In this document: positions 46,519 to 53,281 of the stretch, piece by piece
Layout: each line of letters begins with the position of its first letter
How positions within the stretch are numbered: position 1 is the first letter of the stretch
Assembly: GCF_009791395.1 (NCBI RefSeq)
Contig: NZ_WSZK01000024.1
Location: 1 to 56,935, forward strand
Length of the DNA stretch: 56,935 nt
Origin: Halomarina oriensis
GTDB taxonomy: Archaea > Halobacteriota > Halobacteria > Halobacteriales > Haloarculaceae
Direction of reading: 5' to 3'
Position numbers and translations under genes: made by a program
Notes under the pieces: generated by a model
Told to the model about the DNA's origin: nothing
Database searches by the model: none
The model's input: only the letters and a program-made list of their open reading frames with translations

Positions 46519-46995
46519 ATGGTACGTGAAATCGACGACTCGACACGGATCGTCGAGTCGGAGGTCGGAGCGTCGATGCTCCGTGAGTACGTGACCGTCC
46601 ACGACTCTACGGTCGGGGACGACTGTGGCATCTACGAGCGGACGTCGGTCAAGAAGTGCCACGTAGGCGACAGCGTGGAGATAAACGCCGGCTGTTACGT
46701 CGAGAACGCCGAAATCGGTGACGAGGTGCAGGTCGGGCCGAACTGCAGCGTCGTCGGGGTCACGCACGATCTCGGCGAAGACGGGATGGAACTCCGAAAC
46801 GACGTGTTCGAGCGCATCGTTCTCCACGAGGGGGCGTTCGTCGGCGCGGGCGCTGTGATCGCTCCTGGCGTCGAAATCGGACCGAACGCAGTCGTCGCGG
46901 CCGGTGCCGTCGTCACTACGGACATCGACGAACGACACGTCGTCGTCGGGTCGCCACCGACACAGGACGTCACCCACCTCCGTGAGTGGCTGTAA
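46519..46995 (+). CDS. Hexapeptide-repeat acyltransferase-like protein
   Basis: A 158-residue left-handed beta-helix protein. Hexapeptide repeats run from STVGDDCGIYERTSVKKCHV through VEINAGCYVENAEIGDEVQV to GVEIGPNAVVAAGAVVT, followed by the usual VVVGSPP-type end. Such proteins acetylate sugars or, in the carbonic anhydrase-like branch, bind metal; the sugar O-acetyltransferase type seems more likely from the C-terminal pattern. It could act on surface polysaccharide, given the glycan genes 2-6 kb away, but this is only a suggestion. Confidence 0.82.
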   Translation: MVREIDDSTRIVESEVGASMLREYVTVHDSTVGDDCGIYERTSVKKCHVGDSVEINAGCYVENAEIGDEVQVGPNCSVVGVTHDLGEDGMELRNDVFERIVLHEGAFVGAGAVIAPGVEIGPNAVVAAGAVVTTDIDERHVVVGSPPTQDVTHLREWL

Positions 46996-48915: not shown

Positions 48916-50124
48916 TCACTCCCCGAGGTCACCGTGGAACTCCTCGGTCGTGAGCCGGCGGGGATGGTCCGAGTACGACCCGAGCACGTCCTCGCTGGCG
49001 ACGGCCTCGCGGTACTCGCGGTAGGCGTGGTAGGTGGTCGTCCCGTCTCGCACCGTCTCGGTTCCGCGTGAGCCACCGAACACGGCCCAGTCGGTCTCTT
49101 TCTCGTGGTTGAACCAGAGGGCCATCCGGACGTCGCTCGCCTCGAAGTACGCGAAGACGTCACGGATCCACCGCCCCTTCCTCGTGGGGTCGGCCGTGCC
49201 GTCGAGCACCGACGAACTGCCGTACTCCGAGACGACGACCGGGTTGTCGGTGATGGCCCGAACCGCGTCGAGCGTGGGGCCGTAGATTTGCTCGGGGGGT
49301 GCCCACCCGCCCCACTTCGGGAAGTTGTAGCCGTGGACGCCACACCAGTCGACGTAGTCGTCGCCGGGGTAGAACGCGGCGAGCGGTTCCGCGCTCCGCC
49401 CGACGTGGTTGACCGCCCACACCCACTGGACGTGCTCGTCGGTCAGGCCTCGCGCCATCACGATGTCGTGGACCCGGCGGTACATCGCCACGTAGTCGGC
49501 GGCCGTCGTCCCGCCGGCAGAGGTGTCCCACGGCACCCAGTCGCCGTTCATCTCGGGGGCGAAGTTGAGGTAGAGTCGCCGTTCGGGACCGGATTCGGGC
49601 CGACACCAGCGGCCGAACACGGACGCCCAGCGCTCGAACAGTCGGTCGTGTCTCCCGGCGGCGATGTCCTGAGGGACCGTCGCGGGGGTGTCCTCCTGCC
49701 CCGCCACGAACGGTTGCCAGATGACGTGCGGGACGCTCCCGTGGTCCCAGATGGGCGTCAGCACCGACTCCCCCAGTGCGAGCAGTTCGCCGTCCGAGCG
49801 TCCGACGTCGAGGAAGAGGCCGACGACGGCGTTGTCCTTCCCCTGCCAGCGTTCGAGCGCGGTCAGTCGTTTTCCGGTCCGCGTCTCGGGAGTCACACCG
49901 AGCAGGAGTCGCCCGGTCCGCGTCTCGACGGACTGCGGGGTCGCCTCGGGCGGCGTCTCGGCCGTCGGCGACGGCTCCTCGGTCGGTGTCGGCGTCGTCG
50001 TCGGAACCTGCCGTCGCTCCCTCACGGCGTCGTCCTCGCTCGTCAGCAGTCGGTACAGTTCGGTGCCACCGAGCGCGACACCGAGTGTACCACCACTCAG
50101 TCCGAGGAACGTCCGCCGGTTCAT
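48916..50124 (-). CDS. Tat-exported GH26-like glycoside hydrolase
   Basis: A 402-residue exported enzyme. The signal MNRRTFLGLSGGTLGVALGG has the Tat twin-Arg; a Thr/Pro/Glu-rich linker (about residues 38-70) precedes a TIM-barrel domain. The family 26 catalytic residues are seen: the acid/base Glu in NFAPEMNGDWVPW (about residue 210) and the nucleophile Glu in PVVVSEYGSSS (about residue 295). GH26 enzymes are mostly beta-mannanases, with beta-1,3-xylanase and related members; substrate here is unknown. It is divergent from the glycosyltransferase gene and probably trims or releases the polysaccharide made by its neighbours. Confidence 0.85.
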   Translation of the reverse strand: MNRRTFLGLSGGTLGVALGGTELYRLLTSEDDAVRERRQVPTTTPTPTEEPSPTAETPPEATPQSVETRTGRLLLGVTPETRTGKRLTALERWQGKDNAVVGLFLDVGRSDGELLALGESVLTPIWDHGSVPHVIWQPFVAGQEDTPATVPQDIAAGRHDRLFERWASVFGRWCRPESGPERRLYLNFAPEMNGDWVPWDTSAGGTTAADYVAMYRRVHDIVMARGLTDEHVQWVWAVNHVGRSAEPLAAFYPGDDYVDWCGVHGYNFPKWGGWAPPEQIYGPTLDAVRAITDNPVVVSEYGSSSVLDGTADPTRKGRWIRDVFAYFEASDVRMALWFNHEKETDWAVFGGSRGTETVRDGTTTYHAYREYREAVASEDVLGSYSDHPRRLTTEEFHGDLGE

Positions 50125-50269
50125 ACGCTTCCGATATGCTGTGAAGATTATTGTTATAGTATCGATAGCGACCGCTTCGGCGTCCGTTAAGCCTCGAAAT
50201 GGGACGTTTAACTCGCTCTGGCGGCTGAATCTTCGTTTCGAGCTGTCTCGGGGGAAAGTATCGACAGAC

Positions 50270-50297
50270 AGAAAAAAACGCTGTACGTGACTAACAA
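50270..50297 (+). promoter_or_regulatory. Glycosyltransferase promoter with GTGACTAACAA motif
   Basis: An A-rich TATA-like patch (CAGAAAAAAAC, about 50270-50280) is followed 7 bp on by GTGACTAACAA (50287-50297), 31-41 nt before the ATG at 50328. The same 11 bases recur before the deacetylase gene at 52162 with nearly the same geometry. Confidence 0.5.
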
Positions 50298-50327
50298 AGG
50301 CTGCGGAGAGTCATCCTTCCCTCGTCG

Positions 50328-52025
50328 ATGAACATCTGGCAGTCGTTTCGGGGGGGAGGGGGAGAGCCGAAAGCGCGAGCGAGCGACCGCCAGCGCGGTG
50401 TGCTCACGCTCTGTATCGTGTTGCTGGCGAGTTCGCTGCTCACCGGGTGGGTCCTCCTGCCGGGGTGGATGGTCGTCGCGTGTGCGTCCGTCACGGTGGT
50501 GTTCGGTGCGGCACTCGTCGCCGCCGAACGCCGGCACTCACTGGTCGACCGGCTGTTCGGCGTCCGGGTGCGGGTCCCCGGCTGGGTCTGGCTCTCCGTC
50601 GTGACGGGTGGCGCTCTCACGCTCGGTCTCGCGGAGTGGGGCGTCCTGACGGGTCGGACGCTCGCCTGGGTCGGACTCATCGCCATCGCGGCCGCCGTCA
50701 CCCTCTCGACGCTCGCCCCGCTGGTCGGGGTGATGCGGATGTCGGTGTCGGCACCGCTCTGGCTGGTCGCGGTCGGCGTCGGCGCGGCCGCGAGTTTCGC
50801 GCTCGTCGTCCGGACGACCGGCACCGTCAGTTCCGCGCTGTTCCTCACCGCGTTCGTGGTGTTCTTCACGTACCTCTGGTTCGTCGTCCCGCTCGCGGTC
50901 TACCGTCAGTCGGTCGACCGGGCCGTGACCGTCGCCCCCGAGTCGCTCCCGACGATGAGCGTCGTCGTCCCCGCGTACAACGAGGCCGGCTACGTCGGTC
51001 GCTGTATCGACCGAATCCTCGCCGCGGACTACCCCGCGGAGCGACTCGATGTGCTCGTCGTCGACGACGGGAGTACCGACGACACGCTCGTCGAGGCGAC
51101 CGCTCGCGTCGGCCCACGCGTCGCGGTCTACTCCAAGCCCAACGGTGGGAAACACGCCGCGCTGAACGACGGTCTCGACCGGACGACCGGGGACGTCGTC
51201 GTCGTCGTCGACGCCGACAGCTTCGTCGACGCGGGGGCGTTCCGGGCGGTCGCCGCCAGTTTCGCCAGCGGCGAGCGCATCGGTGCCGTCGCCAGCGACG
51301 TCCGCGTCGTCAACCGGAAGAACGGCATCAGCCGCCTCCAGACGCTGGAGTACGTCCTCGGTATCAACACGTTCAGACGCGCGTTCGACTTCTTCGGTGC
51401 CGTGCCCGTCGTTCCCGGCTGTCTCGGGGCGTTCCGCCGTGAGGCGCTCCGCGACGCGGGCGGCTACGACGGCGACACGCTCACCGAGGACTTCGACGTC
51501 ACCATCAAGGTGCTCAAAGCCGGGTGGACCGTGCGCCACACCGCTGCCAGAGTGTGGACCGAGGCTCCCTACTCGCTCCGTGACCTCTACCGCCAGCGCC
51601 TCCGCTGGAACCGCGGGAACGTCGAGGTGCTGTGGAAACACCGGGACGTGCTGCTCGACGACGACGCCCGCTTCCTCCACCGTCTCGTCTTCCCGTTCCG
51701 CCTCGGGTCGATGCTGCTCGCACCGGTCGTCGCGGTCGCGGTCGTCGTCGCCGTCGCCGTGAGCCTCGTGCAGGGCGACGTCGCGTCGGTCGCGGGGATG
51801 CTCGCGTACTTCACCATCGTCGGCGTGCTCCTGGCGACGCTCGCGGTCCGTATGGAAGGCGAGAGCGTCCGCCTCGTCCCGTACTCGGTCCCGCTCATCG
51901 TGCTGTTCCCGCTGTTCCAGGCGGTCGTCATCGCGGTCAGCATCGCCTCCGCGCTCCTCAGCACCGACCGGTCGTGGGCGAACGTCCAGCGCATGGCACA
52001 GGACCCGGCCGTCGAACGACACTGA
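50328..52025 (+). CDS. Membrane family-2 glycosyltransferase (processive type)
   Basis: A 565-residue protein. N-terminal helices (about residues 27-200, at least five) precede a GT-A domain with MSVVVPAYNEAGYVG, VLVVDDGSTDDTLVE, VVVVVDADSFVDAGA, the LTEDFD motif and the processive-type QRLRWNRG. Three more helices follow (about residues 450-560). The arrangement is that of PgaC/cellulose-synthase-like polymerases that build and export beta-linked polysaccharide. Codons 8-12 contain a G6-A-G5 tract. It lies between the divergent GH26-like gene and the deacetylase gene, 173 bp from the latter. Confidence 0.9.
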   Translation: MNIWQSFRGGGGEPKARASDRQRGVLTLCIVLLASSLLTGWVLLPGWMVVACASVTVVFGAALVAAERRHSLVDRLFGVRVRVPGWVWLSVVTGGALTLGLAEWGVLTGRTLAWVGLIAIAAAVTLSTLAPLVGVMRMSVSAPLWLVAVGVGAAASFALVVRTTGTVSSALFLTAFVVFFTYLWFVVPLAVYRQSVDRAVTVAPESLPTMSVVVPAYNEAGYVGRCIDRILAADYPAERLDVLVVDDGSTDDTLVEATARVGPRVAVYSKPNGGKHAALNDGLDRTTGDVVVVVDADSFVDAGAFRAVAASFASGERIGAVASDVRVVNRKNGISRLQTLEYVLGINTFRRAFDFFGAVPVVPGCLGAFRREALRDAGGYDGDTLTEDFDVTIKVLKAGWTVRHTAARVWTEAPYSLRDLYRQRLRWNRGNVEVLWKHRDVLLDDDARFLHRLVFPFRLGSMLLAPVVAVAVVVAVAVSLVQGDVASVAGMLAYFTIVGVLLATLAVRMEGESVRLVPYSVPLIVLFPLFQAVVIAVSIASALLSTDRSWANVQRMAQDPAVERH

Positions 52026-52039
52026 CCGCTGCCTCCCGA

Positions 52040-52059
52040 CTCGAACGTGTCGGTTCGAG
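52040..52059 (+). terminator. Hairpin after the glycosyltransferase gene
   Basis: Arms CTCGAAC (52040-52046) and GTTCGAG (52053-52059) with a 6-nt loop, 15 bp after the stop codon; GACTC/GAGTC extend the stem with a bulge. There is no T-run. Confidence 0.4.
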
Positions 52060-52144
52060 CGAGTCGTGTCCCCGGCCTCCCGACGAAAGTGCCGATATTC
52101 GATGCAACGACGCTCCTGGTGAGCGAAACTACCTTTCCGACACG

Positions 52145-52172
52145 TTAAATATCTCATTCGAGTGACTAACAA
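52145..52172 (+). promoter_or_regulatory. Deacetylase promoter with GTGACTAACAA motif
   Basis: TTAAATAT (52145-52152) is a good TATA box; GTGACTAACAA follows at 52162-52172, 27-37 nt before the ATG at 52199. The motif begins 9-10 bp after the TATA box, between it and the expected transcription start, as in the glycosyltransferase promoter. Confidence 0.55.
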
Positions 52173-52198
52173 TACCATCGAAGAGTGTTCCTCCGTGT

Positions 52199-53281
52199 AT
52201 GACCCGCCAGCGAGGCCCACGAGAGGACCAGCACGACGACATCCGTCCCGAGTGGGGTAACTGGTCGGTCGGTCGCGCGAGCGCGTGGTCGGTGCTCGGT
52301 GCCGTCGTCGTCCTCCTGCTCGCTGGCGTTGCGACGGGCGGGGTGGGGATACCGGACGGCGTCCTGGGTGACGCCGGGTCGTCGCCGGCCGCCGGACCGG
52401 GAGCGGTCCCGACCCACGGCACGGAGGACGTCGACGGCCCGGCCGAACGGGCCGTCACGACGACTCCAGAGACGCCACCCGAGTGGCACGAGTACGACGC
52501 CGTCGTCGTCTTCCGGAACGACGACATCCAGCCGTACTACCGGACCGAGACGATGGTCGCCGTCGACCGCATCTTCGTCGAGGAAGGCATCCCGGTGACG
52601 CTGGGCGTCGTCCCACAGGTCGGCAACGGGGCACCCATCACCGACACCGACCTCTGTCCGTACCTCCGGTCGCTCGAACGCGACCACCCCGGTCAGTTCG
52701 AGATGGCACTGCACGGCTACACCCACGAACAGCGCACCGACTTCTACGGCGGAAGCGAGTTCGGTGGCCTCGACCCGGCGACTCAGCGGGCGTACATCGA
52801 CAGCGGCACGCGGACACTGACCGAGTGTGTCGGTGAGCGGCCGACGACGTTCGTGCCACCGATGGACACGTACGATGGCGCGACGGTGGACGCGCTCCGC
52901 GCGGCGAACTACACCGTCGTCTCCGGTGGTGGCTCGTTCACCGCCCAGTACTACGACGAGACCGAACCGTTCGAGCGTGACGGCCTCCTCCACGTCCCGA
53001 ACGACGGCGGGTTCGTCGCCAACTGGTCGACCGGGGCGTTCCACGACGCCGATACGCTCGAACGGCGCTACGACTGGGCGGTCGAGGACGGCGAAATCTA
53101 CGTCCAGATGCTCCACTACCAGGACTTCACGACCGAGGAACGCCGGGCACAGCTCCGGGCGTACATCCAGTACGTCAAGGCCTCCGGTGACGTGCGGTTC
53201 ATGACGCTCGGCGAACTGGACGAGCACACCCGGAACGGAACTATCGAGAAGACCGAGGACGGCTGGCGCGTCTACGAGTGA
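52199..53281 (+). CDS. Membrane-anchored NodB-like polysaccharide deacetylase
   Basis: A 360-residue protein with one N-terminal membrane anchor (ASAWSVLGAVVVLLLAGVAT, about residues 28-47), a spacer and a deacetylase domain from about residue 100. The NodB metal-site pattern is present as VVFRNDDIQP (the DD pair) and EMALHGYTHEQ (the two His), with the later barrel segments TTFVPPMDTYDG and VQMLHYQDF. Related bacterial enzymes de-N-acetylate exopolysaccharides such as poly-N-acetylglucosamine. Its position after the glycosyltransferase and the shared promoter motif suggest it modifies that polymer at the outer face of the membrane. Confidence 0.86.
   Translation: MTRQRGPREDQHDDIRPEWGNWSVGRASAWSVLGAVVVLLLAGVATGGVGIPDGVLGDAGSSPAAGPGAVPTHGTEDVDGPAERAVTTTPETPPEWHEYDAVVVFRNDDIQPYYRTETMVAVDRIFVEEGIPVTLGVVPQVGNGAPITDTDLCPYLRSLERDHPGQFEMALHGYTHEQRTDFYGGSEFGGLDPATQRAYIDSGTRTLTECVGERPTTFVPPMDTYDGATVDALRAANYTVVSGGGSFTAQYYDETEPFERDGLLHVPNDGGFVANWSTGAFHDADTLERRYDWAVEDGEIYVQMLHYQDFTTEERRAQLRAYIQYVKASGDVRFMTLGELDEHTRNGTIEKTEDGWRVYE

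Follow-up and report, generated by a model that had tools for sequence, protein, structure and literature searches.

A stretch of 56,935 nucleotides from the haloarchaeon Halomarina oriensis (contig NZ_WSZK01000024.1, positions 1 to 56,935 of the forward strand; hereafter the window) carries three clustered genes encoding a glycoside hydrolase resembling family GH26 and exported by the twin-arginine translocation (Tat) route, a membrane glycosyltransferase of family GT2, and a membrane-anchored polysaccharide deacetylase of the DUF2334 family. On sequence and structural-model evidence, this trio probably forms a co-regulated, synthase-dependent exopolysaccharide module. The functional link between the three genes appears strong because their association is conserved, because bacterial relatives occur as fused proteins, and because the genes share a promoter word, TAACAA.

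Gene Organization of the Locus

The host genome measures 4.07 Mb. The three open reading frames are all complete and uninterrupted, and are recovered by gene calling trained on the sequence. The hydrolase gene is divergent from the GT2 and deacetylase genes, which are separated by 173 bp. The features of the locus are as follows.

48916-50124, minus strand: GH26-like glycoside hydrolase, 402 aa, Tat-exported; nearest solved relative CtLic26A (lichenase/endoglucanase H)
50044-50124, minus strand: Tat signal peptide region of the hydrolase, MNRRTFLGLSGG, read directly from the sequence
50125-50327, no strand: divergent promoter region between hydrolase and synthase, 203 bp
50151-50156, minus strand: TAACAA box, 26 nt upstream of the hydrolase start codon
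50292-50297, plus strand: TAACAA box within GTGACTAACAA, 30 nt upstream of the GT2 start codon
50328-52025, plus strand: membrane GT2 of the predicted processive polysaccharide-synthase type (GT2A), 565 aa
52167-52172, plus strand: TAACAA box within GTGACTAACAA, 26 nt upstream of the deacetylase start codon
52199-53281, plus strand: DUF2334 protein, membrane-anchored polysaccharide deacetylase with a predicted CE4 fold, 360 aa

The Three Enzymes

The DD, DAD, TED, and QRLRW (QxxRW) motifs of the GT2 are invariant across 26 relatives, and its hydrophobic segments (23-193 and 453-547) lie on either side of the catalytic domain. Its best equivalog model is PgaC/IcaA, with 182 bits (97 for the next model), and this is also the best equivalog model in seven of its relatives. 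The AlphaFold2 model of the protein matches hyaluronan synthase (Z score 33.0, 377 residues, 2.8 Å), PcManGT (Z 32.5), and BcsA (Z 30.3). By its motifs, its flanking helices, and its predicted fold, the protein is assigned to the predicted processive polysaccharide synthases.

The deacetylase has a single N-terminal transmembrane segment. It scores 81 bits against the DUF2334 profile (cut-off 26) and 27.5 bits against Polysacc_deac_1 (cut-off 23.1). Its structural model, with a mean predicted local distance difference test (pLDDT) score of 83, adopts a CE4 fold (Z 23.5 with HP0310, Z 23.4 with an M. smegmatis deacetylase, and Z 18.3 with PelA). D108, D109, H172, H176, and H306, which correspond to the Asp-Asp and HxxxH motifs of CE4 enzymes and comprise metal and catalytic residues, are conserved. 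With this fold, an Asp-His-His metal site, and a catalytic Asp, the protein qualifies as a predicted CE4 enzyme. Literature searches returned no study on the function of DUF2334. Many homologues from Natrialbaceae carry extra Cys-rich, zinc-ribbon-like stretches ahead of the membrane anchor (L092, L093, L094, L097, L101, and L102). The close fold matches also include the turret of the haloarchaeal virus HFTV1 (PDB 8qpg), which has a deacetylase domain proposed by its authors to modify host glycans (PMC12494034).

The hydrolase scores 25.6 bits against the Pfam GH26 model (cut-off 20.2) and carries the Tat signal MNRRTFLG; some GH26 members of other genera have a lipobox Cys. In the alignment with C. 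thermocellum Lic26A, its acid/base Glu191 falls on E109 and its nucleophile Glu300 on E222; both catalytic Glu are invariant across 16 relatives. The family profile retrieves CtLic26A with an E-value of 2e-44 and mannanases with 4e-17. More than 100 haloarchaeal GH26 proteins have been described as an uncharacterized clade apart from mannanases (PMC10963439). Overall, these features bear out the three assignments of a preliminary description of the window, which had recognized a Tat-exported GH26-like hydrolase, a processive-type membrane GT2, and a membrane-anchored NodB-like deacetylase.

Conservation of the Trio in Haloarchaea

Conservation was surveyed in 391 haloarchaeal genomes of the class, 34 of which carry the deacetylase (strong hits), 49 a GT2A, and 35 a GH26. 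Deacetylase and GT2A co-occur in 32 genomes for 4.3 expected (p 4e-32) and GH26 and deacetylase in 13 for 3.0 expected (p 6e-7), both p values being too small owing to the relatedness of the genomes. In 29 of the 34 deacetylase carriers, no more than about 250 bp separate the deacetylase and GT2A genes, and a 4-bp stop/start overlap between the two is common in many genera. At least 29 of the 35 GH26 carriers have a membrane GT2 gene no more than 4 kb from GH26, the neighbor being GT2A in 15 genomes and a second membrane type, GT2C, in 14. At the level of gene copies, 34 of the 49 distinct GH26 copies inspected have a GT2A or GT2C neighbor, and most of the others come from one multi-copy genus. 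The arrangement is far beyond chance, so that accidental proximity of the three genes is rejected and the clustering of intact genes in a divergent layout, as first described, stands.

The full trio is present in eight genomes belonging to five genera and four families, plus one metagenome-assembled genome. The eight are those of H. oriensis (G000), Halomarina rubra, three Natronorubrum, Halogranum rubrum, Halorubrum sp. Hd13, and G208. The preliminary description had proposed a search for the trio in other haloarchaea; the genes do stay together there, and the pairs are conserved as well. The layout varies: the three genes are co-directional in G208; in Natronorubrum and Halogranum, GT2 and GH26 are separated by the gene for a PMT-like membrane transferase. 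In G237, a third Halomarina, about 120 kb separate the deacetylase gene from the GH26-GT2 pair. In Natrialbaceae, the deacetylase-GT2 pair faces an HxlR-response-regulator gene and a response-regulator/kinase gene. In Halalkalicoccus, a UDP-glucose dehydrogenase gene (AglM) lies directly 3' of deacetylase-GT2, and a gene of AglM's cluster adjoins GH26 in G060. On the GT2 tree, presence of the trio requires four changes, which suggests that it either arose repeatedly or derives from an ancestral trio that was repeatedly broken up.

Immediately before the acid/base Glu, all readable GT2A-linked GH26 enzymes have Pro and all readable GT2C-linked ones have His, the position being unreadable in two GT2A-linked enzymes (G374 and G208). 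Pro is also found in a Deinococcus GH26 adjoining a GT2A-like synthase. The split amounts only to a consistent partition; its use as proof of repeated co-evolution was dropped, since one origin for the Pro type is not rejected (p-AU 0.27).

Bacterial and Viral Relatives

In several relatives encoded on plasmids, the GT2 is fused to a deacetylase domain. Those of Novosphingobium, Sphingobium, and Sulfitobacter are CE4-GT2 proteins with a longer N-terminal part, and that of Kocuria is a CE4-GT2 fusion adjoined by a weakly GH18-like gene. Those of Sphingomonas, Prevotella, and a Deinococcus unite GH18, CE4, and GT2 in a single chain of about 1100 residues, proteins for which a literature search found no functional study. 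MatB, a CE4-GT2 protein of Streptomyces, is needed for a polymer resembling poly-N-acetylglucosamine (PNAG) (PMC5972031).

GH26 is also found next to GT2 in bacteria. Deinococcus taeanensis has a GT2-GH26 operon with 4-bp gene overlaps; over 318 residues its GT2 has 40% identity with that of Halomarina, and the PEMNG motif is common to the two GH26 enzymes. The start of this pair is overlapped by a gene for a membrane protein with a seemingly degenerate GGDEF-like region and no Pfam match (L264:3090-3902). Curtobacterium and a viral contig (L212) have the order GT2-GH26-UDP-sugar dehydrogenase. More generally, in archaea as in bacteria, GT2-GH26 or deacetylase-GT2 loci repeatedly have a UDP-sugar dehydrogenase gene as neighbor (L259, L212, L124, and L037). 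A viral origin of the trio is rejected: no DUF2334 relative was confirmed in viral contigs, and the viral GH26 relatives are distant, some of them in GT2-GH26 pairs. Phage records also contain homologues of the GT2; these are PgaC-like genes on contigs labelled phage.

A Promoter Word Shared With a Surface-Polysaccharide Island

TAACAA is the sole hexamer common to the three stretches upstream of the trio genes. The window contains four copies, three of which lie 26-30 nt before the trio starts, in the orientation of the gene; the longer GTGACTAACAA is present before the GT2 and deacetylase genes only. Across the genome, 32 sites match TAACAA with an ATG 24-32 nt further on, vs. 17 for the reversed control. 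Nine of these matches fall on contig C45 between 45.9 and 75.6 kb, within a surface-polysaccharide island whose genes encode a GlmS-like enzyme, a UDP-sugar dehydrogenase, flippases, GT4 and GT2-like proteins, DUF354 and DUF1616 proteins, and PadR. The island (G000:C45:38001-77999) holds 14 copies of TAACAA in 40 kb for 1.4 expected, and the word ranks first of the 4096 hexamers upstream of island genes. Several of the island matches lie 57-133 nt, not 24-32 nt, ahead of the called starts.

The same association is observed in H. rubra. There, TAACAA precedes each trio gene, and ten matches are gathered on one 37-kb stretch (G156:C3), a counterpart island with genes mostly 60-95% identical; the genome-wide excess is smaller (38 vs. 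28 in the control). In G237, the word is kept 25 nt before the deacetylase ATG despite the separation of about 120 kb, and it also precedes GH26 and a gene of 114 aa that lies immediately 5' of GT2. Hence, linkage alone cannot explain the shared word. Outside Halomarina, the called starts of the trio genes in Natronorubrum, Halogranum, Halorubrum, and G208 have no TAACAA ahead of them, and the word was seen before one GH26 of another family. The marking is thus mainly lineage-specific.

TAACAA may be a TATA-like element or the site of a regulator; literature searches found no report of such a promoter word in haloarchaea. The word also occurs upstream of one PadR-family gene and of two very similar genes (L306:14421-14705, L310:6522-6854, and L311:5841-6104). 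A PadR-type protein may therefore read TAACAA and regulate itself.

Proposed Function and Alternative Readings

In the exopolysaccharide module that we favor, the GT2 would use a cytoplasmic UDP-sugar to build a beta-linked polymer, probably with an N-acetylated amino sugar, and extrude it through a membrane channel of its own. Some acetyl groups would be stripped from the emerging chain by the anchored deacetylase, and the exported GH26 would cut this chain to set its length, to release it, or to clear stalled polymer. The product would belong to a surface matrix (biofilm or capsule) and be co-produced with the products of the island under TAACAA-marked promoters.

Several observations weigh against this scheme. 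The 182 bits of the GT2 do not reach the PgaC cut-off of 422. Its structural model is of modest quality (mean pLDDT 75) and its top fold match is tied with PcManGT, which we take to be an N-glycan enzyme. The full set of three genes is rare, at 8 of the 391 genomes, and each pair is often found where the remaining gene is lacking. Finally, to our knowledge GH26 enzymes act on mannans and mixed-linkage glucans and not on amino-sugar polymers, so that hydrolase and deacetylase indicate different chemistries. The initial proposal of one polymer made, deacetylated, and trimmed by the three proteins therefore holds as regards their functional link, which bacterial domain fusions and the shared promoter box reinforce, and less firmly as regards the polymer.

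Two chemistries can be considered for the product of the module. With a probability that we would put a little short of even, it would be a partly deacetylated homopolymer of beta-linked N-acetylglucosamine (GlcNAc), PNAG-like or chitosan-like, which GH26 would have shifted to cut. The PNAG-like polymer of MatB (PMC5972031) is consistent with this chemistry. So are the PgaC/IcaA equivalog matches of the GT2 and of seven relatives, the CE4 deacetylase in the trio, the presence in bacterial relatives of GH18, whose substrates are GlcNAc polymers, and the GlmS-like gene in the TAACAA-marked island. However, the GT2 remains far under the PgaC cut-off, UDP-sugar dehydrogenase genes recur near related loci, and we know of no GH26 acting on GlcNAc polymers.

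More tentatively, the polymer might be an acidic heteropolymer with glucuronic acid, either hyaluronan-like or a mixed beta-1,3/1,4 glucose/glucuronate chain, cut by GH26 in the manner of a lichenase. AglM next to deacetylase-GT2 in Halalkalicoccus and the gene of the same cluster near GH26 in G060 point in this direction, as do the UDP-sugar dehydrogenases adjoining GH26-GT2 in Curtobacterium and L212, hyaluronan synthase as the closest fold of the GT2, and the preference of the GH26 profile for CtLic26A over mannanases. However, no UDP-sugar dehydrogenase adjoins the H. oriensis trio, and hyaluronan synthase is tied with PcManGT.

Beyond the exopolysaccharide module, the GT2 could be a lipid- or N-glycan-type transferase, the cluster then modifying the surface-layer (S-layer) glycan. 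PcManGT is indeed the top sequence match of the GT2 as well as tied for the top structural match, a PMT-like transferase is inserted in Natronorubrum and Halogranum, and TAACAA also marks a surface-glycan island. However, TED and QxxRW, invariant in the 26 GT2 relatives, are both absent from PcManGT in the alignment, the N-glycan equivalogs of NCBIfam are far under their cut-offs (AglJ, 36 vs. 325 bits; AglG, 21 vs. 440 bits), and bacterial relatives are fused to deacetylase and hydrolase domains. An N-glycan-type GT2, which the preliminary description had named as an outcome contrary to its own proposal, thus appears unlikely.

That GH26 is an ordinary catabolic enzyme for mannan or glucan utilization, beside the GT2 by accident, is very improbable: catabolic GH26 mannanases do occur in haloarchaea (PMC10963439) and several GH26 copies of genus g33 have no such synthase nearby, but a membrane GT2 is near GH26 in at least 29 of 35 carriers and in bacteria, no other polysaccharide-degradation genes adjoin, more than 100 haloarchaeal GH26 proteins are set apart from mannanases (PMC10963439), the Pro/His residue follows the GT2A/GT2C linkage, and the promoter box is common to all three genes.

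Relationships With Known Polysaccharide Systems

Pga/Ica systems combine a synthase and a deacetylase, the Pga version having in addition a hydrolase (PgaB). The favored exopolysaccharide module has the same composition, with GH26 replacing the PgaB domain. However, the PgaC model is not reached, and the H. oriensis genome contains neither an acyltransferase of the IcaC type (PF01757, acyltransferase family 3) nor a GGDEF domain, at variance with the c-di-GMP control of the Pga version. As for the small partner PgaD/IcaD, no small gene lies inside the trio, no PgaD/IcaD model having been searched. MatB is similar in coupling a PgaC-type processive GT2 to an extracellular CE4 deacetylase via a membrane segment (PMC5972031), and the closest bacterial relatives found include CE4-GT2 fusions. 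However, CE4 and GT2 form one chain in MatB and are encoded by two genes 173 bp apart in Halomarina, where the deacetylase belongs to the DUF2334 branch, GH26 is added, and the IcaC-type acyltransferase is missing. The GH18-CE4-GT2 proteins bring together hydrolase, deacetylase, and synthase, but in a single chain and with GH18 where Halomarina has GH26.

In Pel (B. cereus PelADA and P. aeruginosa PelA), a deacetylase of related fold acts on the emerging polymer, whereas the PelF polymerase is cytoplasmic with a separate exporter (PMC13254593) and the Halomarina synthase is a membrane GT2. Hyaluronan synthase and BcsA share with the GT2 the predicted fold (as regards the alternating two-sugar specificity of hyaluronan synthase, the similarity is one of fold only) and the processive motifs; a Pfam scan of the Halomarina GT2 revealed no PilZ domain. 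Finally, Haloarcula hispanica also has genes for a haloarchaeal exopolysaccharide, which is acidic (AepG, HAH_1662, and HAH_1667; PMC9943897, PMC5467301), but AepG, a dolichol-phosphate-mannose-synthase-like enzyme, represents a lipid-carrier route. Membership in Pga/Ica or Pel, the systems with which the preliminary description compared the trio, is rejected; by analogy, the best reading is a module that would work like MatB or Pga/Ica yet belongs to neither.

The idea is ordinary in bacteria. Its haloarchaeal form would be new: the genes are separate, the hydrolase is a GH26, the genome lacks both GGDEF proteins and acyltransferase family 3, and the proposed module has a promoter word of its own. 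Few haloarchaeal genes for matrix polymers are known, and the trio offers a small, putatively co-regulated candidate set with a bacterial working model. It also suggests a likely role for the large uncharacterized GH26 clade and for DUF2334, and TAACAA indicates further candidate members. As the HFTV1 turret deacetylase domain is thought to act on host glycans (PMC12494034), the trio may bear on virus entry.

A broader and more speculative proposal, to which we give less than even weight, is a surface-polymer regulon in Halomarina. TAACAA, placed where the TATA box would lie for leaderless messages, would switch on the trio and the 40-kb surface-glycan island, perhaps via a PadR-type regulator whose genes carry the word. 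The trio would then make an undescribed deacetylated archaeal polymer, with a hydrolase from the uncharacterized haloarchaeal GH26 clade.

Neighboring Genes

A hexapeptide-repeat transferase-like gene (46519-46995) lies 2 kb from the trio. It had been mentioned as a possible acyltransferase partner, a role now rejected since two unrelated genes lie in between and since it is not near the cluster in H. rubra. The genes flanking the trio are also unrelated to it, with geranylgeranyl-reductase-like and ferredoxin genes on one side and thioredoxin-reductase-like and glutaredoxin genes on the other.

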